Source of the DNA: Desulfovibrio sp. A2
Lineage (GTDB): Bacteria > Desulfobacterota > Desulfovibrionia > Desulfovibrionales > Desulfovibrionaceae
Reading direction: 5' to 3'
Assembly: GCF_000226255.1 (NCBI RefSeq)
Contig: NZ_AGFG01000030.1
Coordinates: 81,084 to 145,083, forward strand
Length of the DNA stretch: 64,000 nucleotides
Below the pieces are notes generated by a model. That model searched no databases. It was not told where the DNA came from and saw only the letters and a program-made list of their open reading frames with translations. The translations under genes and the position numbers were made by a program. Shown one piece after another: positions 13,883 through 54,245 of this stretch (position 1 is its first letter; every line of letters starts with the position of its first letter).

Positions 13883-16800
13883 CTACTTACCTCCCACCTT
13901 GCGGATGTCGACCATGAACGCCTTGGTCTCGGGGATGCCGGTGTTCGGGTCGCCCGCGGACGGCGTGAGCAGGTTGGCCGTGTCGCCGCCGTTCCTGGGC
14001 ACCATCCAGCCGTAGTGCCAAGGCAGGCCCACCATGTGGATTTCCGCGCCCATGACCTTGTGCGGCTTGATGCGCTCGGTGACGATGGCCACCGCTTCCA
14101 GCGAGCCGCGCAGGCTGGATACCTTCACGCGGTCGCCGTTCTTGATGCCGCGCAGCTTGGCCAGTTCCTTGCTGATTTCGGCGAAGATCTCGGGCTCCGC
14201 TTCCACCAGCCACGCGCAGCGGCGGGTCATCAGGCCGGTCTGCCAGTGTTCGGTGACGCGGTAGGTGGTGCCGATGAAGGGGAACTTCGGATCGCACACC
14301 GCCGCCTTTTCGCCCTCGATCTTGAAGGCCACCGGGTTGTGCAGCTGCTTCGAGAACGGGTTCTTGGAAACCGGGCACTCCAGCGGTTCATAGTGCTCGG
14401 GGAAGGGGCCTTCCTCGCGCCCCGGCCCGTACAGCGCGCCGAAGCCGTGCGTCTGCATGATGAAGGGGTGCTTGGCGCCGGGGTCGCCGCCGCCGTCAAC
14501 CACGTCGCCCACCCACTTGCCGTCCTTCCATTCGATGACGGCCTTGGCCGGGTTCCAGGGCTTGCCGGTCTTGTCCACGGAAGCGCGGTTGTAGATGATG
14601 CGCCGGTTCACCGGCCAGCTGAACGACCAGTTGGGGAACAGGCCGATGCGCGCCTGCTCGGGCGTCTGCGTGGTGTCGCGGCGAGCCATCATGTTGCCCG
14701 CGTCGGTGAACGACCCGGCATGCAGCCAGTTGCCGGAACAGGTGGAGCCGTCCGCCGTCAGGAAGGCGAACGAGGGCACCTGCTGCCCGGCCTTGAACTG
14801 CTTGCCGCCCACTTCCACGTCCTTCAGGAAGTAGCCGTTCATGAGCTTGGCGGTCTTGGCCGGGGAGAACTCGTTGTGTTCCTCCCAGTCCTTGATGTTC
14901 AGCTTCAGGATAGGGTCTGCGTGCACGCCGCCTTCCTTGGCGTACAGGTCGCGGATCTTGTGCATCATCTCGAGCATGATGTCGCCGTCGGGCTTGGTTG
15001 CGCCCCACGGCTTGGGCCCGCGATAGCGCCACTGCATCCAGCGGCCGGAGTTGGCCACCGAGCCTTCCTTTTCAATGGACACGGCGCACGGCAGGAAGAA
15101 CACTTCCGTGCCGATTTCCTCGGGCTTCATGCCCGGGCCCTTCCAGAACGACGATGTTTCGTTCTCGAAGATGTTGACGTTCACCAGCCAGTCCAGCTTG
15201 CCGAGCGCGCGCCGGTTCTTGTTGGCGTTGGCGCCGCCGCAGGCGGGGTTCATGCCCCACGCGAAGCAGCCCTTCACGTCGCCCTTGTCCATCTTGTCGA
15301 AGATGTTCAGCCAGAAGTAGTAGGTGGCGGGCTTGGACGCATCGAGCCTGGGCATGATGTCGTAGGCGTCCGCCGGGGCAAGATCCGGGTACAGGGCCTT
15401 CAGGTAGCTGGCCACGTACTTGGGCCGATTCTGCCACCAGTTCACGCTCATGGGGTCTTTGGATTGCGGCGTGATGGTGTTGTACAGGTCCAGGGTGGCC
15501 TGCTTGGTGGTGGGGGTGGGGTTGTACCCCGGCCAGATGTGGGCCAGCAGCCCCTGGTCGGTGGAACCCTGCACGTTGGATTCGCCGCGCAGCGCGTTCA
15601 CGCCGCCGCCCGCCACGCCGATGTTGCCCAGCAGCAGCTGGATCATGGCCATGGCGCGAATGTTCTGCACGCCCACGGAGTGCTGCGTCCAGCCCATGGC
15701 GTACATGATGGTGCCCGCCTTGTCCGGCTTGCCCGTGGCCGCGTAGGCCTTGTAGACCTTCAGCAGCAGGTCCTTGGGCGTGCCGGTGATGTCGGCCACC
15801 TTGTCCACGGTGTAGCGTTCGTAGTGCTTCTTCATCAGGTTGAAGACGCACCGGGGGTGCTTCAGCGACGGATCGCGCTTGGGCACGCCGTTCTCGTCCA
15901 GCTCGAAGGCCCACTGCGACTTGTCGTACTTGCGCTTGTCCGCGTCGTAGCCGCTGAACAGGCCGTCTTTGAACGAGAACTTCTCGCCCACGATGAGCGA
16001 GGCGTTGGTGTACTCGCGCACGTACTCGTCAAAATACAGCTTGTTCTCGAGGATGTACTTGATGAGGCCGCCAAGGAACGGAATGTCCGAACCAGAGCGG
16101 AGGGGGGCGTAGATGTCGGCCTTGGCCGACGTGCGCGTGAAGCGCGGGTCCACGTGAATGACCGTGGCGCCCTTGTCCTGCGCGCGCAGCACCCACTTGA
16201 AGGAAATGGGATGGTTTTCGGCAGCGTTGCTGCCCATGATCAACACACAATCACTGTTCGCAAGATCGTTCCAGTGATTCGTCATCGCGCCGCGACCGAA
16301 CGACTCTGCCAGAGCCGGTACAGTGGGGCTGTGTCAGATCCGCGCCTGGTGTTCGATGAACACCAGGCCGAGGCTTCTGAGGATGACCTGGTAGGCCCAG
16401 CATTCCTCGTTGTCCATGGCGGCGGAGCCGAACGACGCGATGGCTTCCGTCCGGTTCACCTTTTCACCGGCCGCGTTGGCCAGTTGGAAGGATTCGTCGC
16501 GGGTCTTCTTGACGCGCTTGGCGATTTCGGTCAGCGCCCAGTCCCATTCCACTTCCTTCCACTCGCCGCTGCTGGGCGCGCGGTACAGGGGCTTGGGCGA
16601 GCGGGCGTTGTTTTCGCCCAGTTGGAAGATGGACGCGCCCTTGGGGCACAGCGAACCTTCGTTGATGGGATGGTCCGGGTCGCCTTCCACGTTGACGGCG
16701 CGGCCGTCGCCATTCTTGGCGGTATGGACGATGAGCCCGCAGCCCACCGCACAGTAACAGCAGATCGAGGTGGTCTGCTTGGCCCACTGGAGTTTCTGGA

Positions 16801-16909
16801 GTTCGGCCCGCGCCACCGAGGGCGCAAGGCTGATCCCCAGCCCGCCGAACGCGCCCGCCAGGGTGGCGCCCGCGCTCAGCTTGAGAAATTGCCTGCGATT
16901 GACAGTCAT
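13883..16909 (-). CDS. fdhA: Selenocysteine formate dehydrogenase catalytic subunit (read through UGA)
   Basis: One 1008-residue protein if the UGA at 16334-16336 is read as selenocysteine; standard translation breaks it into two frames. Sec is residue 192 in the context HQARI-U-HSPTV, followed by SFGRGAMTNHW, the classic formate dehydrogenase active site. Codons 1-30 are a Tat signal (NRRQFLKLS). A [4Fe-4S] site begins CCYCAVGC (50-57) with C88 as the fourth ligand. The rest has the bis-MGD domains, including MGSNAAENHP and the C-terminal dinucleotide-binding fold. It oxidises formate, or reduces CO2, in the periplasm using Mo or W. The ATG at 16909 is preferred over the adjacent ATG at 16912 for ribosome-site spacing. 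Confidence 0.95.
16295..16319 (-). promoter_or_regulatory. SECIS-like hairpin downstream of the fdhA UGA
   Basis: Fourteen bases after the UGA the mRNA can form a hairpin. GCTCT pairs with AGAGT across a GGC loop, with an outer ACCG/CGGT pairing. Distance and guanine-containing loop fit bacterial SECIS elements that bind SelB. Confidence 0.65.
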
Positions 16910-42133: not shown

Positions 42134-44290
42134 TCAAGGCCGGGGGGCGTCGCCCCCCGACACGGGACGGCCGCTCACGGGCAGGTCGATGCGGAACACG
42201 CAGCCCTCGCCGGGGCGCGATTCCACGGACATGCGGCCCTCGTGCCCCTTGGTGATGATGAAGTACGACACCGACAGGCCGAGCCCCGTGCCCACGCCCG
42301 GCGGCTTGGTGGTGTAGAACGGCTCGAAGATGCGCCGCTGCACCTCGGGCTCCATGCCGGGGCCGTTGTCTTCCACCTCCAGGCGCAGCCAGTCCCCGTG
42401 GGGGAAGGCGCGCAGGATGATGCGCGGCTCTTCCGGCGGCGGGCTCATGCCCGCCAGGGCCTGCGCCGCGTTGCGCAGCAGGTTCAGCAGCACCTGCTCT
42501 ACCTCCGTCTCCACGCAGGACACGGGGGGCAGGTCATCCAAGAACTGGATGTCGATACGTATTTTTCTGAAATCGTAATTCTTCTTCAGGTCGTAGTCGC
42601 TGGCGGCCAGGTTCACGGCGCGGGCCGCCAGGCCCCGCAGGTCGCTGGCCGTGCTGCGCGCGGCGCTGCTGCGGCTGAAGTCCAGCATGTGCCGGATGAT
42701 GCTGGATGCGCGGATGGCCGCCGAGCGGATGTCCTCGATGAACCGGTCCACCTTGCGGGCTTTCAGGTAGCGTTGCAGCGCGTCCAGGTCCAGCCCCGCG
42801 TCCTCCGCCGCCGCGATGTTGGCGGGCAGGGTGGTGTTCATGCGCTGCTGCATGTTCTGCGAGGCCTGCATGATGGCTCCGAGGGGGTTGTTGATCTCGT
42901 GGGCGATGCCCGCCGCGATGCCCCCCACCGAAATCATCTTCTCGGTCTGGATCATTACCTCCTGCATCTTCTTCAGTTCCGTCACGTCGCGCAGCACCAG
43001 CATGAACAGCTGCCTGCCGCCGATGTCCATGGCTTGCCCCGACAGGGAATGGATGACTTCCCGGCCGTCGGGGGTGCGCCCCGCCACCTCGGCGTTGCGC
43101 ACCACGCCTTCCGCTTCCAGCCTCGCCCATGTCCCGCGCCGCGCGCTCTCGCCGGGAAAGATGCCCAGGTCGAGCACGGTACGGCCCACCATGGCCTGGC
43201 GCGCCAGGCCATACGCCGTGGCGGCCGTGTCGTTGACGTCTTCCACCATGCCGGTGTCCGGCGCAACCAGCAGCACGCTGTCCGGCGAAAGCCGGAACAG
43301 GCTGGAAAACCTGTCCTCGGACCGGCGCAGCCGGGCCATGGCCCGCTGCAACGCGCCCAGCGCCAGCGCCACGCAGGCCAGCGTGACCAGAGATATGCCG
43401 CCGCTCACGGCGGCCAGCCTGCGCGCCGGGGCCAGCAAATCCTCTTCGTCCGCCTCTATCACCAAGTACCAGCCCGTGGCCTCGTTGCGCCGGAACAGCA
43501 TCAGGCGTTCCCGCTCCGCGCGCTGGACGCGGTGGATGCCCAGTTCCGCGCCATCGCCGGAGTGCAGCATGTCCATCAGGTGCGCGTCGGGCGAAAAGGC
43601 GTCCGCGCCGGACCAGCCGGGCCGGGCCACCAGCCGCCCCTCGCCGCTCAGGATGTACGCGCCGCCCCGGGAACCCAGGTGCACGCTGTCCAGAATGTCG
43701 CGCGAGAAGGCGTCCATTTCCGTGATGGCCGCCACCACGCCGGTCACATTGCCCTCCGTGTCGCGCACCGGCTCGGCCGTCACCACCACCGCGCCGCCCG
43801 TGATGACGGACATGGGCACCAATTCCAGCGCGGCGCGCCCCTGCATGGCCGTCTGAAACGCCTCGCGATGGGAAACGTCGCGCCGGTCGTCCGCCACCGG
43901 CACGGTGGCCAGCACCATAACCCCCGAGCCGTTGATGAGCGTCAGGTGGCTGAAACCGCCCGCCTGCACGAACGCATCCAGCTTGCGCTGCGCCGCCAGC
44001 CGGGCCGAACGGCCCAGGTACGAGCCCTCCAGCGCCAGCGGCAAGACCTCTTCCTGGCTCACCAGAAAGGTGCGCCGCGCCATGTCACGCACCCGGCCGG
44101 AAACGTCGCGGTCCAGCAGTTCCAGCGCCTGCACCATCTGCGTCACGGCCATGTCCTCGGCCGTGGCGCGGGTGTGGCGGTAGGACACCACGGAAATGAC
44201 CACCACCCCGACGAACACCGCCGTCAGCACCGAGGCGCTCAGCCGGTTCAGCATGGCCCAGCGCCAGGCCCGCTCGGTGAACACGCTCAT
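42134..44290 (-). CDS. Membrane histidine kinase with Cache and PAS domains
   Basis: A 718-residue sensor kinase. TM1 (18-38) and TM2 (about 288-310) bracket a large periplasmic domain with Cache features (GGFSHLTLINGSGVMVLAT, SHREAFQTAMQG, VVAAITEMDAFSRDIL). A PAS domain follows, then the phospho-acceptor His in AAGIAHEINNPLGAIMQA. The ATPase has NLLRNAAQAL, DNGPGMEPE and GTGLGLSV. No response regulator is adjacent. The ATG overlaps the stop of the upstream binding-protein gene (ATGA), so the two work together. The partner regulator must be encoded elsewhere. Confidence 0.93.
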   Translation of the reverse strand: MSVFTERAWRWAMLNRLSASVLTAVFVGVVVISVVSYRHTRATAEDMAVTQMVQALELLDRDVSGRVRDMARRTFLVSQEEVLPLALEGSYLGRSARLAAQRKLDAFVQAGGFSHLTLINGSGVMVLATVPVADDRRDVSHREAFQTAMQGRAALELVPMSVITGGAVVVTAEPVRDTEGNVTGVVAAITEMDAFSRDILDSVHLGSRGGAYILSGEGRLVARPGWSGADAFSPDAHLMDMLHSGDGAELGIHRVQRAERERLMLFRRNEATGWYLVIEADEEDLLAPARRLAAVSGGISLVTLACVALALGALQRAMARLRRSEDRFSSLFRLSPDSVLLVAPDTGMVEDVNDTAATAYGLARQAMVGRTVLDLGIFPGESARRGTWARLEAEGVVRNAEVAGRTPDGREVIHSLSGQAMDIGGRQLFMLVLRDVTELKKMQEVMIQTEKMISVGGIAAGIAHEINNPLGAIMQASQNMQQRMNTTLPANIAAAEDAGLDLDALQRYLKARKVDRFIEDIRSAAIRASSIIRHMLDFSRSSAARSTASDLRGLAARAVNLAASDYDLKKNYDFRKIRIDIQFLDDLPPVSCVETEVEQVLLNLLRNAAQALAGMSPPPEEPRIILRAFPHGDWLRLEVEDNGPGMEPEVQRRIFEPFYTTKPPGVGTGLGLSVSYFIITKGHEGRMSVESRPGEGCVFRIDLPVSGRPVSGGDAPRP

Positions 44291-45324
44291 TGGATGACCA
44301 TCTCCGCCGCCTTGATGATCTCGTAGGGAATGACCAGCCCCAGGCGTTCCGCCGTCTTCAGGTTGACGAACACCAGCCCCTGCTGGTTGATGGACACGGG
44401 CAGATCGCCCGCGCGCCCGCCGCGCAGCAGCAGGTGCCGGGCCATGCGGCCCGCCAGCAACCCCTGCTCGTGCCCCGATTCCAGAATGCCGCAAAGATGC
44501 CCGTGATCGCGGGTGGCGTCGCTGAAGCCCAGCGTGGGCTTGCGCAGCGCGGAAAGGTTCCAGTCGCGCACGGTTTCCACGGGCACCACCTTGCCGGTGG
44601 TCTCGTCCACCAGCGAATGGTACAGCCCCAGGGCCACCGCGTCGGCACGTTCCTGCGCGGAAAGCACCGCGCGCTTCCATTCCTGAAAGGTGCGCAGCAT
44701 GGCCACGTCGGACAGTTGCAGCGCAAAGGGGCCGTTGCGGGCCAAGTCGGCACGCATGTCGGCCAGCACGTATCCCGCCGATTCCGAATCATCCAGCAGT
44801 ACCGCCACGGTCTTCACGCGTGGATCGATCTTGTGCAGCAGGTCGAAACCGTCGCGAAAGTGCCAGCGCTCGCGCACCCCGGTCACGTCGGCCGCCGGAT
44901 AGCCGTAGTTTTCCAGCGGCGCGTTGACACCGCAGAACACCACCTGCGGGCCGCCCTTGCCCACCAGATACGGAACGGCCAGATACTTCTGCGCCACGTC
45001 GTCCACGGTGATTACCAGCCTGGGGTCCAGCTTCCCGATGCGGGCGGCGATGTCCTGCGCCGCCGCGCGCAGCCTGTCGGGCGAGGGATTGCGTTTGGCG
45101 TCCAGGTAGAAGACGTCGATGACGACTCCCGCGCCCTTCAGGGCATTGCGGATGCCGTCGTTGATGTTCTGGCACCAGATGTATTCGGCGTTGTAGCTCT
45201 GCACCACGCATACCCGCGTCACCGTGTCCCGCGCCTGGGCCACGCCGGAAAAAGGCGGGCACCACGCGAGCACAACCCAGCCCACAAGTTGCAGCAACAG
45301 AAAGAGACGCAAACGGTTACGCAT
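44287..45324 (-). CDS. ABC-type substrate-binding protein linked to a kinase
   Basis: A 345-residue exported protein of the ABC_sub_bind family. The signal peptide (LFLLLQLVGWVVLAW) precedes VTRVCVVQSYNAEYIW, VVIDVFYLDAKRNPS, PRLVITVDDVAQKYL and VKTVAVLLDDSES, the two-lobed sugar/organic ligand-binding pattern. No permease or ATPase gene is near. Overlap with a histidine kinase suggests a sensory role in which the loaded protein contacts the kinase Cache domain. The ATG at 45324 is preferred because AGGGG lies about seven bases upstream. Confidence 0.85.
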   Translation of the reverse strand: MRNRLRLFLLLQLVGWVVLAWCPPFSGVAQARDTVTRVCVVQSYNAEYIWCQNINDGIRNALKGAGVVIDVFYLDAKRNPSPDRLRAAAQDIAARIGKLDPRLVITVDDVAQKYLAVPYLVGKGGPQVVFCGVNAPLENYGYPAADVTGVRERWHFRDGFDLLHKIDPRVKTVAVLLDDSESAGYVLADMRADLARNGPFALQLSDVAMLRTFQEWKRAVLSAQERADAVALGLYHSLVDETTGKVVPVETVRDWNLSALRKPTLGFSDATRDHGHLCGILESGHEQGLLAGRMARHLLLRGGRAGDLPVSINQQGLVFVNLKTAERLGLVIPYEIIKAAEMVIQ

Positions 45325-45480
45325 GGCATACCCCTGTGGCACGGCGGAAGACGAGCACCGGCACCGCAGCCGCTGACCCGCCAGTCTGCACCTTGGAACA
45401 AAGTCGGCACGGTGTCCATTATTGTCGCGCGGGTGCCCCCACCCGCAACGTGCGTGCTTTCAGCCCGCTGCAAATCATGG

Positions 45481-45588: not shown

Positions 45589-48384
45589 TCAGCGTTCCCC
45601 CCGCCGGCCAAGGACCAGCCACGCCGCCGCCACCTTGCGGCAGAACGTTTCCGAGCGTTCCACCAGCAAGGGCATGTCGCGCGCCAGGTCCTCGAAGTAC
45701 ACGTCGTCGAACGTTTCCCGATAGGCGGCGTATTCGCGCATGCGCCCCCTGCGGAACATGTCCACCCAATCCTGCACGATGGCGGAATCCACCTCCAGAT
45801 GGAACTGGAATCCGTAGGACGCGTTGCCCACGCGGAAGCACTGGTTGCGGCACCGTTCGCCCCGCACCAGCAGGGTGGCCCCCTCCGGCAGGTCGAAGGT
45901 GTCTTCATGGAAGAACATCAGGCGCGGCAGGGGCAGAGCGGGCGACAACACAGGGTCGGTCAGGCCCGCGTCGGTGGGCGTGAAGGCCACGAAGCCGAAC
46001 TCCAGCCCGTCCATGGTCCACGGTCTGCCGCCGTGGGCACGCGCCAGCAGTTGCGCCCCCAGACAGATGCCCGCCACCGGCCTGCCCGCCGCGTCGAAGG
46101 CGCGCAGCAGGTCCATCAGATGCGGGAAGTAGGGGGAACCCGCGTCATCCGAGCAGTGCTGCGGGCCGCCCAGGACCACCAGCGCGTCGTATCCGGCCAG
46201 GGCCTCGTCGAGCGACGGCAGATCATCCCCGTGCCCCGGCCGCAGGGTGGCCAGCGCCGCGCCGCAGCGCTCCAGCTCCTTGCAGAAGTTGCCGCCGGGG
46301 GCGTCGCAGCCGGGCTGCACCACCAGCACGCGCAGGCCGGTCAGCCCGTCGTCGGGGCACGGCGTCACCCGCACGCTGGTCTCGTAGTACGGCGTGCCGC
46401 GTCCCACCAAGCTGGACAGGGCGCGGGTGAGCAGGTTCAGCCCGTGCCCGGCCTTGTTCCAGCCGCCTCGCTCGGCCACCAGAATGTCCGCCCGCTGGCC
46501 GTCTGCGGTGCGCAGGGTGGCCTTCACCGCGCCCACGCAGCTTTCCACCCGCACCACCGCGCCGTCGACCAGGCCCAGGCGGGCGGCCTCGGACGTGGCC
46601 AACACCACCTCGGCCAAGGCGTCGTGCTCGGCCATGGTGCGCTCGGAGCAGATGTACCCGTGCGGGGCGATGGTCAGCAGACGATAGGGATAGTCCGGGT
46701 CCACCGCGCCCAGCCCTGCGGGGTCGAAGTCGGTCATGAACCGGAACTTGCCGGACGGCGTGGGAAAAGTCTTGTCCGCGTAGGGCACCATGGGCGCTTC
46801 CAGCCGAAAGGCCCCGGCGCGCAGCCGCTCCGGCGTGCAGCCCTGCCGCCATATGGGCGCGCACAGGTCATGCAGCCACTCGTCCACGCCGCGCCGGAAC
46901 CGTTCCGCAAAGGGAAAGCGCGCCGCGAGGTCGTGGAACATCATGAATTCCGAACGGCACTCGCCCACCGGCGCGATGACCCTGTTCACCGGCCCCACGT
47001 AATTGTGGCCGTAGCTGGCCACGACGTCGTCTTCTTCCAGAAAGGTGGTGGCGGGCAGGAAAACGTGGGCCAGGTCCGCCGTGTCGTCCATGAAGTGACC
47101 GGAATAGACCACGAATTCCGCCTTGCGGAAGGCCCGGGTGACGGCACCGGCATCCGCCGCCATGCAGGCCGGGTTGCCCGCCGTAACCATGATCATGCGG
47201 ATTTCCGGGTCGCGCGCGTCCAGTATCTCGCGGCCTATTTCCGGCAGCAGCAGGGTGCGCCGGGGCGGGTTCAGCCCGTCGCCCCAGTACTGCGGGTCGT
47301 AGGGGCCGTATTCCTCGAAGCCCTGGCTCACCCCGCCGCCCGGCACGCCGATGTTGCCGCTGATGGCCCCCAGCGCGTCCACGGCGCGGATGGACAGGTG
47401 CGCCGCCTCGTGCCGGTGCATGCCCCAGCCCAGCAGGATGGACGTGGGCCGCTGGCGCAGCATCATGCCAGCCAGAAACTCCGCGTCGGCCATAGGCACG
47501 CCGCAACGGGCGCACAGTTCGTCCACGGTGTACCGGTCAAGGATGCGCAGGTATTCCGCCGCGCCCTCGGCGTGGCGTTCCATGAACGCGCGGTCCTCGC
47601 CCCCGGCGCGCAGGATGAGCTTGGCCACGGCCATGGCCAGGAAGGCATCCGTACCAGCGCGCGGGGCGATGTGCCGGTCGGCCAGCGGGGCCGAACGGTT
47701 GCGGGCCGGGTCCACCAGCACCACCGTAGCCCCCTTCTTGCGTATCTCGCGCAGGATGGGCACCAGGCTGATCTGGGTGGATGCCGGGTTGCGGCCCCAC
47801 AGGATGAGCGAGTTGCTGTTGTAGTGGTCCAGCGGGTCGTGCGAGACGCGCTGGCCGAAGTCCAGGTTCTGCGCGCCCTGCCCCGCCCCGCCGCACAAGG
47901 ACCCGCGCAGGGTGGTCACCCCGCCGAACAGGTTGAAGAAATAGCGGTGCAGCAGCTTCAGTGCCGTGCGTTCGCCGTAGCCCTGATAGTACAGGATGGC
48001 TTCCGTGCCGGATGCGTCGCGTATGGCGGTCATGCGCGCGGCGATGTGGTCAAGCGCCTCGTCCCACGTGGCGCGCCGCCACGGCTGGTCGCGGTGATCG
48101 CGCAGCAGCGGGTGGGTGATGCGTTCCGGGCTGTACACCCGCTTCACGTAGCGCTGCGCCTTGACGCAGGACTTGCCGAGGGTCAGCGGGTGGTCCTGGT
48201 CGCCCGCCAGCCGCACCAGGCGGCCGTCGCGCACGGTGGCCACCAGGCCGCAACCGTTGGGGCAGTCGCGGGTGCAACTGGTGATGATGCGTTGTTCGCT
48301 GCAGGCTTCGCCTGCCGCATGACCGGAAGCACGGCGTAGAGCCGCTCCGGAACCGGTGGCCGATGTTCTGCGCATGTCGTCCAT
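45589..48384 (-). CDS. Molybdopterin oxidoreductase fused to a class I glutamine amidotransferase domain
   Basis: A continuous 931-residue reading frame. The first 690 residues are a DMSO-reductase-superfamily Mo/W-bis-MGD enzyme: [4Fe-4S] ligands CTRDCPNGC plus a later Cys in GKSCVKAQRY, MGD contacts, and a probable Cys ligand to Mo in GSLCGGAG. The MGD-binding domain ends at about TPYYETSVRVTP. Fused to it are 240 residues of a GATase I fold: DALVVLGGPQHCSDD, nucleophile elbow GICLGAQLLA (C774), and FQFHLEVD (H862, E864). No signal peptide is visible, so it is cytoplasmic. The electron partner and substrate are unknown. The start is uncertain (48384, 48375 or 48459). Confidence 0.85.
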   Translation of the reverse strand: MDDMRRTSATGSGAALRRASGHAAGEACSEQRIITSCTRDCPNGCGLVATVRDGRLVRLAGDQDHPLTLGKSCVKAQRYVKRVYSPERITHPLLRDHRDQPWRRATWDEALDHIAARMTAIRDASGTEAILYYQGYGERTALKLLHRYFFNLFGGVTTLRGSLCGGAGQGAQNLDFGQRVSHDPLDHYNSNSLILWGRNPASTQISLVPILREIRKKGATVVLVDPARNRSAPLADRHIAPRAGTDAFLAMAVAKLILRAGGEDRAFMERHAEGAAEYLRILDRYTVDELCARCGVPMADAEFLAGMMLRQRPTSILLGWGMHRHEAAHLSIRAVDALGAISGNIGVPGGGVSQGFEEYGPYDPQYWGDGLNPPRRTLLLPEIGREILDARDPEIRMIMVTAGNPACMAADAGAVTRAFRKAEFVVYSGHFMDDTADLAHVFLPATTFLEEDDVVASYGHNYVGPVNRVIAPVGECRSEFMMFHDLAARFPFAERFRRGVDEWLHDLCAPIWRQGCTPERLRAGAFRLEAPMVPYADKTFPTPSGKFRFMTDFDPAGLGAVDPDYPYRLLTIAPHGYICSERTMAEHDALAEVVLATSEAARLGLVDGAVVRVESCVGAVKATLRTADGQRADILVAERGGWNKAGHGLNLLTRALSSLVGRGTPYYETSVRVTPCPDDGLTGLRVLVVQPGCDAPGGNFCKELERCGAALATLRPGHGDDLPSLDEALAGYDALVVLGGPQHCSDDAGSPYFPHLMDLLRAFDAAGRPVAGICLGAQLLARAHGGRPWTMDGLEFGFVAFTPTDAGLTDPVLSPALPLPRLMFFHEDTFDLPEGATLLVRGERCRNQCFRVGNASYGFQFHLEVDSAIVQDWVDMFRRGRMREYAAYRETFDDVYFEDLARDMPLLVERSETFCRKVAAAWLVLGRRGER

Positions 48385-48804
48385 CCCGTGGCGCAACCCC
48401 GGATGGTGGCCCGCAGGCCGGAATGGGCGCGCCCTGCAACGCGCCCGTTGCCCGTTCATGGCACAGCCGCCCCGGAGCGGCAAGCTGCCCGGCACGCCAC
48501 GTCCGTCCCGTCAAGCGCTTGTCTGCCCCGCCCAGGCCGCGCCATCCCCTTGTGAAGGGGACGTCCCGGCGCTACAACATGACGGCGGCGCACCATCCGC
48601 CGCACGTGCGCGAGCGCGCCGATTGACACCCACTGCGGCATGGGGCAAGGGTGCCACAGGCTGCCGCCCCGCAGTGCGCACGTTTCGCGCCCCGCAAGGC
48701 CCGACGCGCCACATTGCCACCGCCATAACGGTCACCTCCGTCATTACCCACATGGCGGGCCGCCCGGCCCCGCGCCGCGCCCGCAAACCATACAGGAAGC
48801 CATC
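48385..48804. other. Divergent intergenic region, no gene seen
   Basis: 420 bp between the leftward oxidoreductase gene and rightward ddl. No convincing reading frame, promoter pair or hairpin with T tract was found. Confidence 0.4.
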
Positions 48805-50034
48805 ATGTCCAACGGCAAAATCCGCGTCGCGGTCTTTTTCGGCGGGCGTTCGCCCGAACATGACGTCAGCATCGTCACCGGCCTGCAGGTCATTCAGGCG
48901 CTGGACGCATCCCTCTACGAACCCGTGCCCGTCTACGTGGACCGCTGCGGCGTTTGGCGCACCGGCGAGAAACTGCTGGACCGCGCCACCTACATCCCCG
49001 CCCGCGACGCCGACGGCCTGCCCGCCGTCTCGCTGGAAATCGCCCCCGGCAAGGGCGGCATGCTGGTGGAGCAGACCGCCAAACTGTTCGGCAAGCCCAA
49101 ACGCATTCCCTTCGACGTGGCCATCCCCGCCTTCCACGGCCCCTACGGCGAGGACGGCGACATGCAGGGCCTGTTCGAGACCGTGGGCATTCCCTACACC
49201 GGCATGCGCGTGCTGGCGTCCGCCATCTTCATGGACAAGGCGGCCACCAAGCAGGCCCTTTCCGGCGCGGGCATTCCCATGCTGCCTTGCGCGGTGCTGC
49301 GCAAGCCCGTGGGCGGCCTGCTGCCCCCGCGCGCCGAGATAGAGGCCGCGCTGGCGGGCATCACCCTGCCCGGCTGCCTGAAGCCCGCGCACCTGGGCAG
49401 CAGCATCGGCGTGGCCAAGGTGGATTCCATCGAAGAGATCGAGGCGGTACTGCCCGGCCTGTTCAGGAACGACACCGTGGCCATCGTGGAACCGTACCTG
49501 GACGGCTGCGTGGAATACAACATTTCCGTGCGGCGCGACGGCGAGGGGCACGCCACCTCGGCCATTGAGCGGCCCAAGCGCGACAGCGAACTGCTGGATT
49601 TCCGCCAGAAGTACCTGTCCGCAGGAGGAAAGGGCGGCGGCAAAACCGGCGGGGTGGGTGGCGGCGCCAAGAGCGCGGGTGATTCCGGCAGCGCGGGCAT
49701 GCTTTCGCTGACGCGCGAGATCAACCCCGACCTGCCCGAAAGCCTGGAAGGCCGCATCCGCGACTTTGCCGTGCGCACCTACGCGGCCTTTGGCGGCACC
49801 GGCGCGCCGCGCATGGATTTCATGTACGACGCCTCGCGCGACGAGGTATGGCTGAACGAGGTGAACCCCATCCCCGGCTCGTTCGCCTTCTTCCTGTGGG
49901 AGGCGGCGGAAACCCCGGTGCGCTTCACCCGGCTGCTCTCGCTGATGATCGACGAAGCGCGGGCCATGGCCCGCCACACCGCCTGCCCGGAGGATCCGAC
50001 CCCCGAGGCGGCGCGGCTGTTCCCCCGCCGGTAG
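48805..50034 (+). CDS. ddl: D-alanine-D-alanine ligase (or D-Ala-D-Xaa ligase) with Gly-rich insert
   Basis: A 409-residue ATP-grasp ligase. Motifs: VAVFFGGRSPEHDVSIVTG at the N terminus, AFHGPYGEDGDMQGLFE, KPAHLGSSIGVAKV, and VWLNEVNPIPGSFAFFLWE for metal binding. It joins two D-amino acids for peptidoglycan precursors. Between DFRQKY and SLTREINPDL there is a Gly/Ser/Lys-rich insert of about 27 residues (273-299) in the loop that closes over the active site. That may change dynamics or specificity. The ATG at 48805 follows AGGAAG. It is followed by a hydrolase and a MurF-like gene on the same strand, after a hairpin at 50143-50171. Confidence 0.88.
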   Translation: MSNGKIRVAVFFGGRSPEHDVSIVTGLQVIQALDASLYEPVPVYVDRCGVWRTGEKLLDRATYIPARDADGLPAVSLEIAPGKGGMLVEQTAKLFGKPKRIPFDVAIPAFHGPYGEDGDMQGLFETVGIPYTGMRVLASAIFMDKAATKQALSGAGIPMLPCAVLRKPVGGLLPPRAEIEAALAGITLPGCLKPAHLGSSIGVAKVDSIEEIEAVLPGLFRNDTVAIVEPYLDGCVEYNISVRRDGEGHATSAIERPKRDSELLDFRQKYLSAGGKGGGKTGGVGGGAKSAGDSGSAGMLSLTREINPDLPESLEGRIRDFAVRTYAAFGGTGAPRMDFMYDASRDEVWLNEVNPIPGSFAFFLWEAAETPVRFTRLLSLMIDEARAMARHTACPEDPTPEAARLFPRR

Positions 50035-50142
50035 CCAGAACGTCAGCTTGCCCGTTGGCGCAGCGCCCCGAAGAGGGCGGACATCCTGCCCAACTGGTTG
50101 CCCACAAGCCTTCTTCTCTTGCCCTCCTTTTCCCGCACGCAG

Positions 50143-50180
50143 CGCGCGCCGTCCCCACCGGGCGGCGCGCGTTTCGTTTG
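50143..50180 (+). terminator. Terminator downstream of ddl
   Basis: CGCGCGCCG (50143-50151) pairs with CGGCGCGCG (50163-50171) and TTTCGTTT follows. It is about 110 bp past the ddl stop, so the hydrolase gene may need its own promoter. Confidence 0.6.
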
Positions 50181-50400
50181 CCCTGCCGACATGGTTTTCA
50201 ACGTACAGCGACGCGGCCCGGCCACATGCCACCCGCCCTGCCGGACGCCCGTCCGGCACGCATCAGGCCGCCCCTTGCCCCTTGGCGCGCCCCCGGTGTA
50301 CACCACGGGGCGCGCCACGCCGCTCACCCCGCCCATTTTCGCGGCCATTCCCGCATGCGGGCGACGGCCGCAGCGCCGAACACACCACTCCGAGGCCAGA

Positions 50401-51258
50401 ATGGATTCCGCCCCGCACACCGCCGCGCCTTCCGCCGCCGCATCAGGCCAGGCGGGTCCCCACATGCACGTGGTGCATCTGCCCAATGCCGCGCCCGCCC
50501 GCCAGAAACCGGCGACCGGCGGCACGCCCCCCGCAGCCCCCATCGCCCCCCAGATCATATGGGCGCACGGCTGGATGCACACCCACGCCAACCTGCTGCC
50601 GCTGGCCAACACCTGCACCCACGGGCGCGACAACTACCTGCTGGACATGCCCGGCTTCGGCCGCTCCGGCATGCCGCCCGCCACCTGGGGCACGCAGGAC
50701 TACGCCGACCACGCCGCCGCGTGGCTGCGCACGCTGCCGCGCGGCAAGCGCGTGTGGGTGGGGCATTCCTTCGGCTGCCGGGTGGGCCTGCAACTGGCGG
50801 CCCGCCACCCGGACCTGGTGGACGGCCTGTTCCTGATGGCCGCCGCCGGGCTGCCCCGCCGCCGCACGCCCGTGGAAAAGTTCACGCGCGGGTGCCGCAT
50901 CGCCGCATTCAAGACGCTGAAGCACCTCAACTGGCTGGGCTTTGGCGCGGAACGCGTGCGCCGCTTCTTCGGCAGCGCGGACTACGCCAACGCCGGGCCG
51001 CTGCGGCCGGTGTTCGTCAGCGTGGTCAACGAGAACCTGTCCGACGTGGCCGCCCGAGTGGCCTGCCCCGTGCACCTGCTGTACGGTGAAAACGACACGG
51101 AAACCCCGCCCTCCATGGGGCAGGACTTTGCCCGGCTGCTGCCGCACGCGCACCTGCAGGTGCTGCCGCGCTTCGGGCATCTGGACATCCTCACGGCGGG
51201 CGGCCATCAGGCCGTGTACGCCCTGGACACCTTCTGCGAGGGAATCTTCGGTGGCTAG
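50401..51258 (+). CDS. Alpha/beta-fold hydrolase
   Basis: A 285-residue cytoplasmic hydrolase. After a 50-residue low-complexity head the fold starts with QIIWAHGWMHTHAN (oxyanion region). The nucleophile elbow GHSFGCRVG places the catalytic Ser at 123. The acid is in LLYGENDTETPPS and the His in PRFGHLDI. The substrate is unknown. The stop overlaps the GTG start of the next gene (MurF-like), so the two are coupled. That suggests a role on cell-wall precursors or on the ester/amide product of the ligase (inference). ATG 50401 follows GAGG. Confidence 0.85.
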   Translation: MDSAPHTAAPSAAASGQAGPHMHVVHLPNAAPARQKPATGGTPPAAPIAPQIIWAHGWMHTHANLLPLANTCTHGRDNYLLDMPGFGRSGMPPATWGTQDYADHAAAWLRTLPRGKRVWVGHSFGCRVGLQLAARHPDLVDGLFLMAAAGLPRRRTPVEKFTRGCRIAAFKTLKHLNWLGFGAERVRRFFGSADYANAGPLRPVFVSVVNENLSDVAARVACPVHLLYGENDTETPPSMGQDFARLLPHAHLQVLPRFGHLDILTAGGHQAVYALDTFCEGIFGG

Positions 51259-52885
51259 CTCTCTGTTCCTGGGCGCGGCGTTTCTCGTGTTCGCCGCGCG
51301 GCGCGGCCTGACCTACCTGCACATCTTCCAGCAGGAGGAATACGACGGCCCGCGCTTTCTGCGCTGGATGGCCGCCGCCCGCGCCATCGACAAGCGCGCC
51401 ACCCTGCCCCTGCTGGCCTGCTGGGGCGCGGCGCTGGCCGCGCCGGATGCCACGGAATGGGGGGCGTACGCCAAATGGACGGCGGGCCTTGCCCTGCTGG
51501 CCGTGGCCGCCGTGGAGGACAATCCGCTAAAGGCCGCCAAGAAGAAGCTGGTGCTCACCGCGCGGGTCAAGCGCATCCTGTCCGTGGCGCTGGGGCTGAC
51601 GGCGCTGTACGCCGTGGCCCTGGCGCTGTGCCCCGCCGAACCCGCAACCCTGCTGCCGTTCTGGATTCTGGGGGTGCAGGGGCTGCCGCTGACGCTGGTG
51701 GCGGCCAACGCTTCCCTGGCCCCGGTGGAGGCGCGCATCCAGCAGGGCTTCTGGAACGAGGCGCACGAAAAGCTGCTGCGCCTTGCGCCCACGGTGATCG
51801 CGGTCACCGGCTCGTACGGCAAGACCAGCGTGAAGCACATCCTGGCCCACGTGCTGGGCTGCTACCACCCCACGCTGATGACGCCGGGCAGCATCAACAC
51901 GCCCATGGGCATTTCGCGGATCATCCGGGAAAAGCTGACCGACGCGCACCGCTTCTTCATCGCGGAAATGGGCGCCTACGGCGTCGGCTCCATCGAACGA
52001 CTGTGCAGGCTGGCCCCGCCCGATTTCGCCATCATCACCAATGTGGGCCCGGCCCACTACGAACGCTTCAAGGATCTGGCCACCGTGGTGCGGGCCAAGT
52101 TCGAGCTGGCGCACGCCACCGTGGCCCGTGGCGGCCGGGTGGTGCTGCCCGCCGCCCTGCTGGAGCACGGCCATGCGCGCGACTTCGCTGCCGCCAACGC
52201 GGGCGCGGTGCTGCTGTGCGCGGGTGCGGACGGGGGCGCGGGAACGGATGTGGCGGAACCTTCCGTCCGCGTGCTGGAGGCCGGGCAGGACCTTTCCGGC
52301 ATCCACGCCCGCCTGCTGTATCAGGGGCAGGAATACGAGGTGCGTGCGCCCATCCACGGCATGCACCACGTGGACAACGTGGCCCTGGCCTTCGCCGCGG
52401 CATGCGGGGTGGGCGTGGAGCCGCAGCGGGTGGTCAGCGCGCTGCGCAGCCTGCCGCAGATCGCCCACCGGCTGGAGGTGAAGCCCCAGCCCGACGGTTC
52501 CGTGCTCATCGACGACGCCTACAATTCCAACCCCTCCGGCTTCGCCTCCGCCCTGAACCTGCTGGACCTGTACCGCAAGTCCGGCCGGCGCGGCGTGCTG
52601 GTGACCCCCGGCATGGTGGAACTGGGTACCCTGCACGACAGCGCCCACGCCGAGCTTGGCGCGCGCGCCGTGGCCTGCGCCGATGTGCTGCTGGCCGTGG
52701 CCCCCGCCCGCATCCCCACCCTGGTGGATGCCTTCCGCGCCGCAGCCGGGCCAGACCAACTGGTGGTGGAGTGCGTGGACTTCACCGCCGCCCGCGCTTG
52801 GCTGGCCGCCAACATCGGCCCCGGCGACGCCGTGCTGCTGGAGAACGACCTGCCCGACCTGTACGAGAAGAAGGTGCGGGTGTAG
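51251..52885 (+). CDS. MurF-like Mur ligase with N-terminal membrane segment
   Basis: A 544-residue protein starting with GTG at 51251, eight bases after GAGGG and overlapping the hydrolase stop. The first 150 residues contain three to four hydrophobic segments (SSLFLGAAFLVFAARRG, LLALAAV-like helices, LPFWILGVQGLPLTLV) not found in standard MurF. From 180 it is a Mur ligase: P-loop TGSYGKTSVK (186-195), TPGSINTPMGISR, AEMGAYGVGSI, IITNVGPAHYE and the MurF-type VLIDDAYNSNPSGF. It should ligate a dipeptide such as the Ddl product to a UDP-muramyl tripeptide, or a related acceptor at the membrane. Confidence 0.88.
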   Translation: MASSLFLGAAFLVFAARRGLTYLHIFQQEEYDGPRFLRWMAAARAIDKRATLPLLACWGAALAAPDATEWGAYAKWTAGLALLAVAAVEDNPLKAAKKKLVLTARVKRILSVALGLTALYAVALALCPAEPATLLPFWILGVQGLPLTLVAANASLAPVEARIQQGFWNEAHEKLLRLAPTVIAVTGSYGKTSVKHILAHVLGCYHPTLMTPGSINTPMGISRIIREKLTDAHRFFIAEMGAYGVGSIERLCRLAPPDFAIITNVGPAHYERFKDLATVVRAKFELAHATVARGGRVVLPAALLEHGHARDFAAANAGAVLLCAGADGGAGTDVAEPSVRVLEAGQDLSGIHARLLYQGQEYEVRAPIHGMHHVDNVALAFAAACGVGVEPQRVVSALRSLPQIAHRLEVKPQPDGSVLIDDAYNSNPSGFASALNLLDLYRKSGRRGVLVTPGMVELGTLHDSAHAELGARAVACADVLLAVAPARIPTLVDAFRAAAGPDQLVVECVDFTAARAWLAANIGPGDAVLLENDLPDLYEKKVRV

Positions 52886-52929
52886 GAAAAACGCATCTCC
52901 CCCCGCGCATTTCCCGTCATCCCGAACCC

Positions 52930-52958
52930 TTGACGGAACGGCCCCGGTGCGCTCTAGT
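52930..52958 (+). promoter_or_regulatory. Promoter of the GGDEF gene
   Basis: TTGACG (52930-52935) and TCTAGT (52953-52958) with a 17-bp spacer, about 130 bp before the ATG. Confidence 0.45.
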
Positions 52959-53093
52959 GTCGGGAATGCAATGGCGGAAACAACACGCCAGCGACACAGG
53001 CCCGCTTCCGCCAACAGCGTTCCGCCCCACGGCGGCCGTGCGTTGCAACGGTGGAAGCATGTGGACACACACGCTCCAGCAGGCACACACTCC

Positions 53094-54245
53094 ATGACGT
53101 ATCTGTCCACGATCCACGTCGACATCCTCATGTGTCTCGCGTTGCTTCCCGCCATTGTCGTGGCGGTCATCAAGCTGGACAAGAGCATTGCCGCCCACCG
53201 GCACCTTGTTTCCGTCATGGTGTGCGTCTTCGTGCTGCTGGTGCTTGAAGCATGCAGCGTGGCGCTGGACACCAACTTCAACGCCACGATCCACGACGAC
53301 GCGCAGCTTGTTCCCTTCGGCAAGCTGGTGAACAGCATCGGCTTTCTGCTGGTGCCCGTGCCCGCCTTTCTGACGTGGACCTTCCTGCACCATTGGACCG
53401 GCGTGCGCCTTTCCGCATCCTCCGCCCTGCTTTGGGCGCTTCCCCTGGCGTGCAACGCGGGGCTGGCCATATTCAGCTACAACGCGGGGCTCCTGTTCTC
53501 CATCGCGCCCGACAACACCTACTCGCGCGGGCCGTGGTTCCCCCTGTCCCCTGCCGTTTTCTACGGCTACCAGGCCCTGGCGGCGGGCTTTCTGATTCGC
53601 CAGCGCAACCGGCTGAAAACGGAAGAAACGGCCCTGTTCGCCCTGGCGTTGGCCCTGCCCGCCGCCACTGCGGCCATTCAGCTGCAATACTTCACCTTTC
53701 TGACGATATGGAGCAGCTGGGCCATCTCGTGCATCATCCTGCTGGTGGCCGTGTTCATCAATTCGTCCGAGCGCGACGAACTGACCAAGCTGGCCAACAG
53801 GACGGCGTACCGCAACGCCATCGCAAAGGCCCGGCGCATGCGGGAACTGAAGATGTGCGTGGCCCTGCTGGACATGGACGGCCTGAAATCCATCAACGAC
53901 AGGCACGGGCACGCGGCCGGGGACATGGCGCTGCTGACGCTTGCGGAAGGGCTGCGGGAAACCTTCGGCGAAGGGTTCAGCGTCATGCGCTTTGGCGGTG
54001 ACGAATTCGCCGTGGTCCAGTTCGACAACGACCCCGCCGCCCTCTACGAGGGGCTCTGCACCCTTGAAAGCAACCTGGCGGAGCAGGATGCGGCCTCCGG
54101 CAGGCCGTACCGCGTGGCGTTCAGCTACGGGCTGGCCTGCTCACGCGACGGCGAAAGCGTTGACGCGCTGCTGAAGCGGTGCGACACATTGATGTATGAC
54201 CGCAAGCGGCAGAAACACCTCAAGGCGGTTGCAACCTCGGCCTGA
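53094..54245 (+). CDS. Membrane diguanylate cyclase (GGDEF)
   Basis: A 383-residue protein. Seven membrane helices fill residues 8-222, an integral sensor of unknown type. The GGDEF domain follows with [34 protein letters not shown] and the intact active site GGDEF (301-305). The RxxD product-inhibition site is absent, so feedback by c-di-GMP is probably weak. It makes c-di-GMP at the membrane. The start at 53094 lacks a strong ribosome site, and an upstream in-frame ATG at 52971 cannot be excluded. Confidence 0.9.

Follow-up and report, generated by a model that had tools for sequence, protein, structure and literature searches.

What could bring a molybdenum or tungsten oxidoreductase and a glutamine amidotransferase together in one polypeptide is the question raised by a gene of Desulfovibrio sp. 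A2, located at positions 45589..48384 (minus strand) of the window, which is the whole stretch of 64,000 nucleotides analyzed here. The gene encodes a protein of 931 amino acid residues, in which a bis-molybdopterin guanine dinucleotide (bis-MGD) oxidoreductase, hereafter the Mo part, is followed by a class I glutamine amidotransferase (GATase) domain. In relatives, the fused gene closes a conserved operon with a glutamine synthetase-like (GS-like) ligase, and we lean towards the view that the fusion is the terminal enzyme of an anaerobic amine-utilization pathway that proceeds via gamma-glutamylation. The gene of the window is misleading if it is read alone, as its partners appear to have been deleted.

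Domain organization of the fusion protein

The open reading frame (ORF) extends without interruption over 45589..48495 of the minus strand and its product exceeds the gathering scores of PF04879, PF00384, PF01568 and PF00117, which confirms a preliminary description of this DNA that had placed both enzymes in a single frame. The start codon is uncertain: the 931 residues are counted from the ATG at 48384, and other in-frame starts are ATG at 48375 and 48459, TTG at 48396 and 48483, and GTG at 48495. The predicted structure shows a predicted local distance difference test score (pLDDT) of 86.5 and a predicted template modeling score of 0.87. Residues 1-25 have a pLDDT below 50 and the residues before approximately 29 are outside the DNA homology with two operon-bearing congeners; for these two reasons, the ~28 N-terminal residues may have arisen as a by-product at a deletion junction.

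The motifs are exactly those of the preliminary description. The CTRDCPNGC cluster motif starts at residue 37 and GSLCGGAG at residue 161. The [4Fe-4S] cysteines C37, C41, C45 and C73 (48166..48276, minus strand) are conserved in the alignment, which contains 122 fused rows (103 proteins and 19 loci) and 30 unfused rows: C41, C45 and C73 are found in 121 of the fused rows, C37 in 120, and all four in every unfused row. C164 of GSLCGGAG (47893..47895, minus strand), the predicted Mo/W ligand, is a cysteine in 122/122 fused and 30/30 unfused rows. With PF00384, PF01568, PF04879 and a cysteine at the metal in all 152 rows, the Mo part belongs to the bis-MGD or dimethyl sulfoxide (DMSO) reductase superfamily. 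It shares with periplasmic nitrate reductase (Nap) and formate dehydrogenase the fold, the [4Fe-4S] motif and the cysteine at the Mo site, but identities range only from 21% (2nap) to 25% (top formate dehydrogenase matches), a GATase is present at the C-terminus and no partner subunit gene was recognized. Scores of 211.9 bits with the formate dehydrogenase alpha model TIGR01591 (cut-off 666.25) and 65.2 bits with the NapA model TIGR01706 (cut-off 930.55) do not allow either name, and the Mo part scores far under the cut-offs of the 25 NCBIfam families among the matches listed.

A short interdomain linker, approximately residues 677-682 (46339..46356, minus strand; boundary estimated from structural-match ranges), leads to the GATase domain, which is assigned to class I by PF00117 (36.7 bits against a cut-off of 22.8) and a Cys-His-Glu triad. 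The predicted catalytic nucleophile C774, in GICLGAQ (46063..46065, minus strand), is a cysteine in 115 of the 122 fused rows and lost in seven; H862 and E864, in FQFHLE (45793..45801, minus strand), are retained in 118 and 121 rows and lost in four and one, respectively.

The fusion is the last gene of a conserved operon in relatives

In a sample of 297 genomes of the class, the fusion was found in 38, across three families of the order and 12 genera; G249 is counted among them although a contig end cuts its gene. Inspection of the neighbors, proposed as a check in the preliminary description, showed that the fusion of 24 of these 38 genomes lies within a conserved operon, with every one of the 12 genera represented, and is the last gene wherever the locus is readable. 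The operon order is GS-like ligase, C45 hydrolase, substrate-binding protein, two permeases, two ATPases, radical S-adenosylmethionine (SAM) protein and fusion, and some draft genomes have these genes on separate contigs. The ligase belongs to PF00120 and the radical SAM protein to PF04055, while the C45 hydrolase reaches 237.7 bits with NF040521 (cut-off 85). The substrate-binding protein of the ATP-binding cassette (ABC) importer belongs to PF01547 and shows, by eye, a twin-arginine-like leader. Most of the 12 upstream stretches also encode a hybrid sensor kinase and an NtrC-like regulator, divergent from the operon.

The operon and the fusion are distributed together. Across the 297 genomes, 23 contain the substrate-binding protein (E ≤ 1e-60) and 23 the ligase (E ≤ 1e-100), with a union of 24, absence being judged from genomes of unequal completeness. 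Of these 24 genomes, 23 have a fused frame; that of G249 is cut by the contig end. Two congeners of the window's species, G077 (locus L045) and G090 (L043:10785-11483), have inside the operon a second, standalone GATase which is ~33% identical to the fused one. We claim no defense role for the radical SAM protein, because the match of the PADLOC viperin models is confined to its first 85 residues.

The ligase of the operon has FYGGLLGLDVQSM, with extra residues, in place of the FDGSS segment of glutamine synthetases, which we take to be their ammonia site. A long N-terminal amine loop that replaces the ammonia-site motif is the mark of organic-amine ligases (GoaS), and the operon ligase carries it. 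Among the five alignments listed, the synthetase is 12 residues short in this loop in four, and only 8wwu has the loop (six residues more). This structure is the 1-naphthylamine ligase NpaA1, whose loop lines the amine pocket (PMC11335346). The ligase stays under the cut-offs of the named equivalogs TIGR03105 (252.6 of 469.6 bits), TIGR00653 (217.5 of 429.15 bits) and NF045547 (211.6 of 650 bits).

Comparison with known systems and proposed role

The closest precedent is the oxidation of aniline and naphthylamine, in which the gamma-glutamyl amide formed by a GS-like ligase is the target of a GATase-type hydrolase and an oxygenase acts on the gamma-glutamylated form (PMC11335346, PMC7500099). 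The AtdA1-A5 and NpaA1-A5 systems thus combine the same three activities, GS-like ligase, GATase-type hydrolase and an oxidizing enzyme for the gamma-glutamylated form (PMC11335346); however, they use an O2-dependent Rieske enzyme and separate genes, whereas here an anaerobic Mo/W enzyme is fused to the GATase and accompanied by a radical SAM protein, a C45 hydrolase and an importer. As described for AtdA2, the GATase is encoded beside a GS-like organic-amine ligase in the operon genomes, which is not the case in the window's genome. On the Delftia plasmid pC1-1, a homologous GATase, which aligns to 72% of the domain at 29.7% identity, is flanked by a GS-like gene on one side and a ring-hydroxylating dioxygenase on the other.

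The Puu putrescine pathway (PuuA, PuuB, PuuD) follows the same logic as the proposed system, with a ligase, oxidation of the gamma-glutamylated amine and a gamma-glutamyl hydrolase of the GATase fold; it differs in having a flavin oxidase and no fusion, and PuuD (Peptidase_C26) is another branch of the fold. The isopropylamine (ipu) cluster of Paenarthrobacter plasmid pTC2 contains ipuC, 32% identical to the operon ligase, and two GATases; the fused domain shares 30% identity with one of them and shows no match to the second. This cluster has P450 and ferredoxin genes, and its genes are unfused. On a plasmid of Rhizobium sp. ACO-34A, an importer 58-78% identical (four of five proteins compared; substrate-binding protein 78.5%) is accompanied by a standalone GATase and a GS-like ligase, but amidase, ferredoxin and serine hydroxymethyltransferase genes are found instead of those of the C45 hydrolase, the radical SAM protein and the Mo enzyme. 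Furthermore, the Streptomyces ethanolamine cluster pairs a gamma-glutamylethanolamide synthetase with a glutamine amidotransferase gene (PMC6529630).

On this basis, the pathway would proceed as follows. The ABC importer would take up the substrate, which may have been released from an amide by the C45 hydrolase, and the GS-like ligase would join the amine group of the substrate to glutamate at the gamma-carboxyl. With the radical SAM protein, the [4Fe-4S]/bis-MGD part would then carry out a redox change on the gamma-glutamylated compound, after which the Cys-His-Glu triad of the GATase would cut the gamma-glutamyl amide and release glutamate, so that the fusion would keep oxidation and deprotection on one polypeptide. 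In the species of the window, the operon would be gone and only the fusion enzyme left. The operon partners suggest that the GATase is a hydrolase instead of an ammonia-transferring domain, and the fusion itself, together with the aniline precedent, suggests that the Mo part acts on the gamma-glutamylated compound. We infer likewise the direction of the redox step and the identity of the substrate.

Distribution of the fusion and its split form in NaphS2

Fusions make up 103 of the best 120 of 834 homologue clusters, a count that includes the window's own; a further 16 are unfused and one is partial. This proportion and the fused open frames of many independent genomes exclude a sequencing error at the junction, and the stop or frameshift which the preliminary description had considered there is absent. 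Searching with the GATase domain alone, in proteins of 0.55-1.75x length, gave 102 matches, 99 of them with a Mo-enzyme domain. The other three are P0124, a protein of 620 residues in which a radical SAM domain is followed immediately by the GATase, the Mo part being reduced to a trace at most (by eye), apparently through an internal deletion, and P0130 and P0131, which show a glucose/sorbosone-dehydrogenase domain and a P450 piece, respectively, adjoining the GATase and may be gene-call artefacts. A standalone GATase 54% identical to the fused domain is also found among seemingly unrelated genes in G247 (L042:974-1702).

In the window's genus, eight of eight genomes show matches, those of G675 being only two partial ones that begin at the first bases of contigs, and the name of a close relative, Nitratidesulfovibrio sp. 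SRB-5 (89%), may point to this genus for the window. The tree of the Mo part fits a single fusion event in the order with several later losses of the GATase domain; support is weak for some of its deep branches. The preliminary description knew of no characterized enzyme with this architecture, and searches of open-licence papers agree with this; the accessible part of a D. vulgaris fitness paper (PMC10102598) holds nothing on this gene. The architecture is nevertheless already recorded by automatic annotation, as some homologues bear the Joint Genome Institute name 'anaerobic selenocysteine-containing dehydrogenase/GMP synthase-like glutamine amidotransferase', which describes both halves.

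A pattern-based, non-exhaustive search based on the radical SAM alignment, run over 84,980 species genomes, detected 15 loci: 14 titled Desulfovibrionales and one of Delta proteobacterium NaphS2, listed by NCBI as unclassified Deltaproteobacteria and not in the order. The gene set of NaphS2 is rearranged, with ligase, C45 hydrolase, radical SAM protein, Mo enzyme and GATase on one strand and the importer on the other. Its Mo gene ends with TAA, an ATG of the GATase is possible one base later behind a purine-rich stretch, and the Mo protein ends about where other unfused ones do; from these features, two genes are more likely than a frameshift. A fission is possible in NaphS2, since a second tree, calculated for the triad test described below, places it inside the fused group. 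Orthologues encoded as two unrelated proteins had been named as a refuting observation; two proteins do exist here, but as neighboring genes of the same cluster they are not unrelated and support the link.

The locus of the window as a probable operon remnant

The window's genome has no importer substrate-binding protein (E ≤ 1e-60) and no ligase (E ≤ 1e-100), and the window contains no convincing remnant of the operon besides the fusion itself. Compared with the congener G090, window positions 45601-48298 correspond to the fusion gene and 48542-54245 to sequence ~15.5 kb further on, which puts a deletion point at 48299..48541, between the two flanks. The intervening ~15.5 kb of G090 contain the operon, the sensor kinase and the regulator. 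The short form is also found in G066 and G067. In G181, the fusion is directly preceded by a radical SAM frame that is truncated, and beside it lies a piece that looks, by eye, like the C-terminal end of the regulator encoded with the operon; this is an intermediate state with a decayed operon. Since the same gene order is found in other genera, the short form would represent a loss and not the original state.

Divergent from the fusion, a row of D-Ala-D-Ala-ligase-like, alpha/beta-hydrolase and Mur-ligase-like genes (48640-52885, plus strand) is kept in the operon-less G066 and G067 and lies beyond the operon in G090. Downstream of the fusion are genes for an ABC_sub_bind (PF04392) protein and a Cache/PAS histidine kinase (42134-45342, minus strand), matched in G077 and G067 and without a match in the G066 stretch. 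A second Mo-enzyme homologue at 14936-16843 (minus strand) is 24.7% identical over 425 residues to the Mo part of the fusion. No RNA families or tRNAs were found in the window, and PADLOC gave no match for the fusion.

Conservation of the triad and selection on the GATase domain

The triad was compared with the presence of the operon in 46 in-group genomes, 45 from the class sample and NaphS2, with a ~50% identical group as outgroup and with G249 excluded for its cut gene. All 24 operon genomes, NaphS2 among them, have an intact triad. The 22 genomes without the operon comprise 11 with an intact triad, eight without the domain and three with a broken triad; G034 (locus L060) shows an intact triad. 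The association has a Fisher p of 5e-5 with the kinship of the genomes ignored. The triad is therefore not lost in all relatives, as had been conceived in the preliminary description: it is lost in a minority and, among the classified genomes, only in those without the operon, the operon state of rows with a lost triad being known only for those among the 46.

Against six congeners, the window's copy shows omega values of 0.034-0.133 for the GATase and 0.049-0.061 for the Mo part. With the triad kept and purifying selection indicated by these values, the window's own copy probably still works. The divergence of the GATase relative to the Mo part has a mean ratio of 1.32 in 12 operon-operon pairs, 2.20 in 19 mixed pairs and 2.12 in 14 operon-less pairs, that is, the divergence of the GATase is about double that of the Mo part when a pair includes an operon-less genome. 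The pairs, from which G034, G223 and G249 are excluded, are not independent of each other, and the Mo rows of G168, G170, G233, G291, G269 and G223 are cut at 680 residues, which lowers four of the 12 operon-operon values; the mean without these four is ~1.55. The same badly cut rows are in the tree behind the triad contrasts given below. The rate comparison is thus weak support.

These data bear on the idea that, in the species of the window, function is confined to the Mo part, while the GATase is carried along as a passenger that is about to be lost. The idea is limited to the copy in the window and is compatible with the proposed pathway. The absence of the operon from the window's genome and the twofold divergence in pairs with operon-less genomes agree with it, but the triad is intact, omega is well below 1 against the congeners, and the faster rate is also seen between two operon-bearing congeners (2.19). 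We consider it a conceivable but doubtful account.

Evaluation of the proposed role

Several results weigh against the pathway proposed above. In eight independent contrasts on well-supported branches, the triad and the operon changed as expected in three, in the opposite way in none and without difference in five (p 0.25), and the phylogeny-corrected association is not significant. An intact triad is kept in 11 operon-less genomes, that of the window included, and the GATase of the window's genus continues to be under purifying selection, so it must act without this ligase or the loss must be recent. Among the solved relatives of the GATase, gamma-glutamyl peptidase 1 (E 3.7e-5) and GMP synthases rank similarly; the domain is as near to these ammonia-donating enzymes as to the peptidase, and hydrolysis cannot be read from its sequence. 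No electron-transfer partner was recognized among the operon proteins scanned. An NtrC-like regulator would be expected to go with a sigma-54 promoter in front of the ligase, but only one of the 12 upstream regions showed a match on the operon strand (another match was on the other strand), and this promoter was dropped as a candidate. In G508 (locus L120), of another family of the phylum, a 76% identical importer occurs with neither ligase nor fusion beside it. Not every homologue is paired in this way: a Thermomicrobium GS-like gene (39% identity) has no GATase and an Azospirillum GATase (40%) no ligase in the annotated surroundings, and the importer relatives on two Rhodobacterales plasmids (41%; Phaeobacter, Alisedimentitalea) have neither nearby in an incomplete gene table.

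The aniline system itself supplies a further objection, as its hydrolase is a safety valve that is dispensable for the conversion (PMC11335346, PMC7500099). By analogy, the Mo part could act on an unrelated or free amine while the GATase reverses excess gamma-glutamylation, as AtdA2 does on gamma-glutamylanilide, and the fusion would provide co-expression only. Besides the precedent of AtdA2 and NpaA2, this agrees with the lineages that lose or degrade the GATase domain and keep the Mo part, and with the unfused Mo enzymes (~70% identity), which have no ligase or GATase in the surroundings examined (no GATase gene nearby in 14 loci, in stretches of unequal length). However, the operon that encodes the ligase also ends with the gene of the Mo part, and all 23 operon genomes of the class with an uncut gene have retained the fusion; we find this explanation rather unlikely.

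The fusion could also be a classical amidotransferase, in which ammonia from glutamine hydrolysis by the GATase aminates the redox product in the Mo site or its vicinity. Glutamine-dependent synthases usually have a GATase fused to another domain, the PF00117 fold has a complete triad and the PDB list includes the GMP synthases mentioned. Nevertheless, no ATP-binding or synthase family appears among the Pfam matches and the 25 NCBIfam matches listed for the Mo part, the operon carries an amine ligase of the kind that is paired with a gamma-glutamyl hydrolase in the aniline system, and in NaphS2 the GATase and the Mo enzyme are separate genes. We regard this mechanism as unlikely. Accordingly, of the two functions offered in the preliminary description, a gamma-glutamyl hydrolase on an amidated substrate is favored by the gene neighborhood and ammonia delivery is the less likely one.

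Finally, hydroxylamine or hydroxamate chemistry, with a DnfC-like GATase that handles a gamma-glutamyl hydroxamate or another N-oxidized compound, is very improbable: DnfC is the closest solved structural match of the GATase domain (29% identity over 230 residues) and nitrate reductase is structurally close to the Mo part, but no diiron-oxygenase or NADH-reductase-like gene was recognized among the operon proteins scanned, and the role of DnfC in the dirammox system of Alcaligenes is not settled in the accessible parts of its source, which also limits its use in favor of the gamma-glutamyl hydrolase.

Implications for sulfate reducers

Within the amine-utilization pathway preferred here, the system may tentatively be seen as an O2-independent counterpart of the aniline-dioxygenase pathway, in which amines protected by gamma-glutamylation would be attacked with water-derived oxygen (or by dehydrogenation) by a Mo/W-bis-MGD enzyme with its own gamma-glutamyl hydrolase. 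In the accessible parts of the literature cited, gamma-glutamylation followed by oxidation is an aerobic route of amine breakdown. The importer, the ligase and the fusion can be assayed separately. If the proposal is true, amines would be activated, oxidized and released without O2 in sulfate reducers, Desulfovibrio metagenome-assembled genomes included, and the fusion would represent a new reaction for Mo/W enzymes and a new route for the catabolism of organic nitrogen in anoxic environments.

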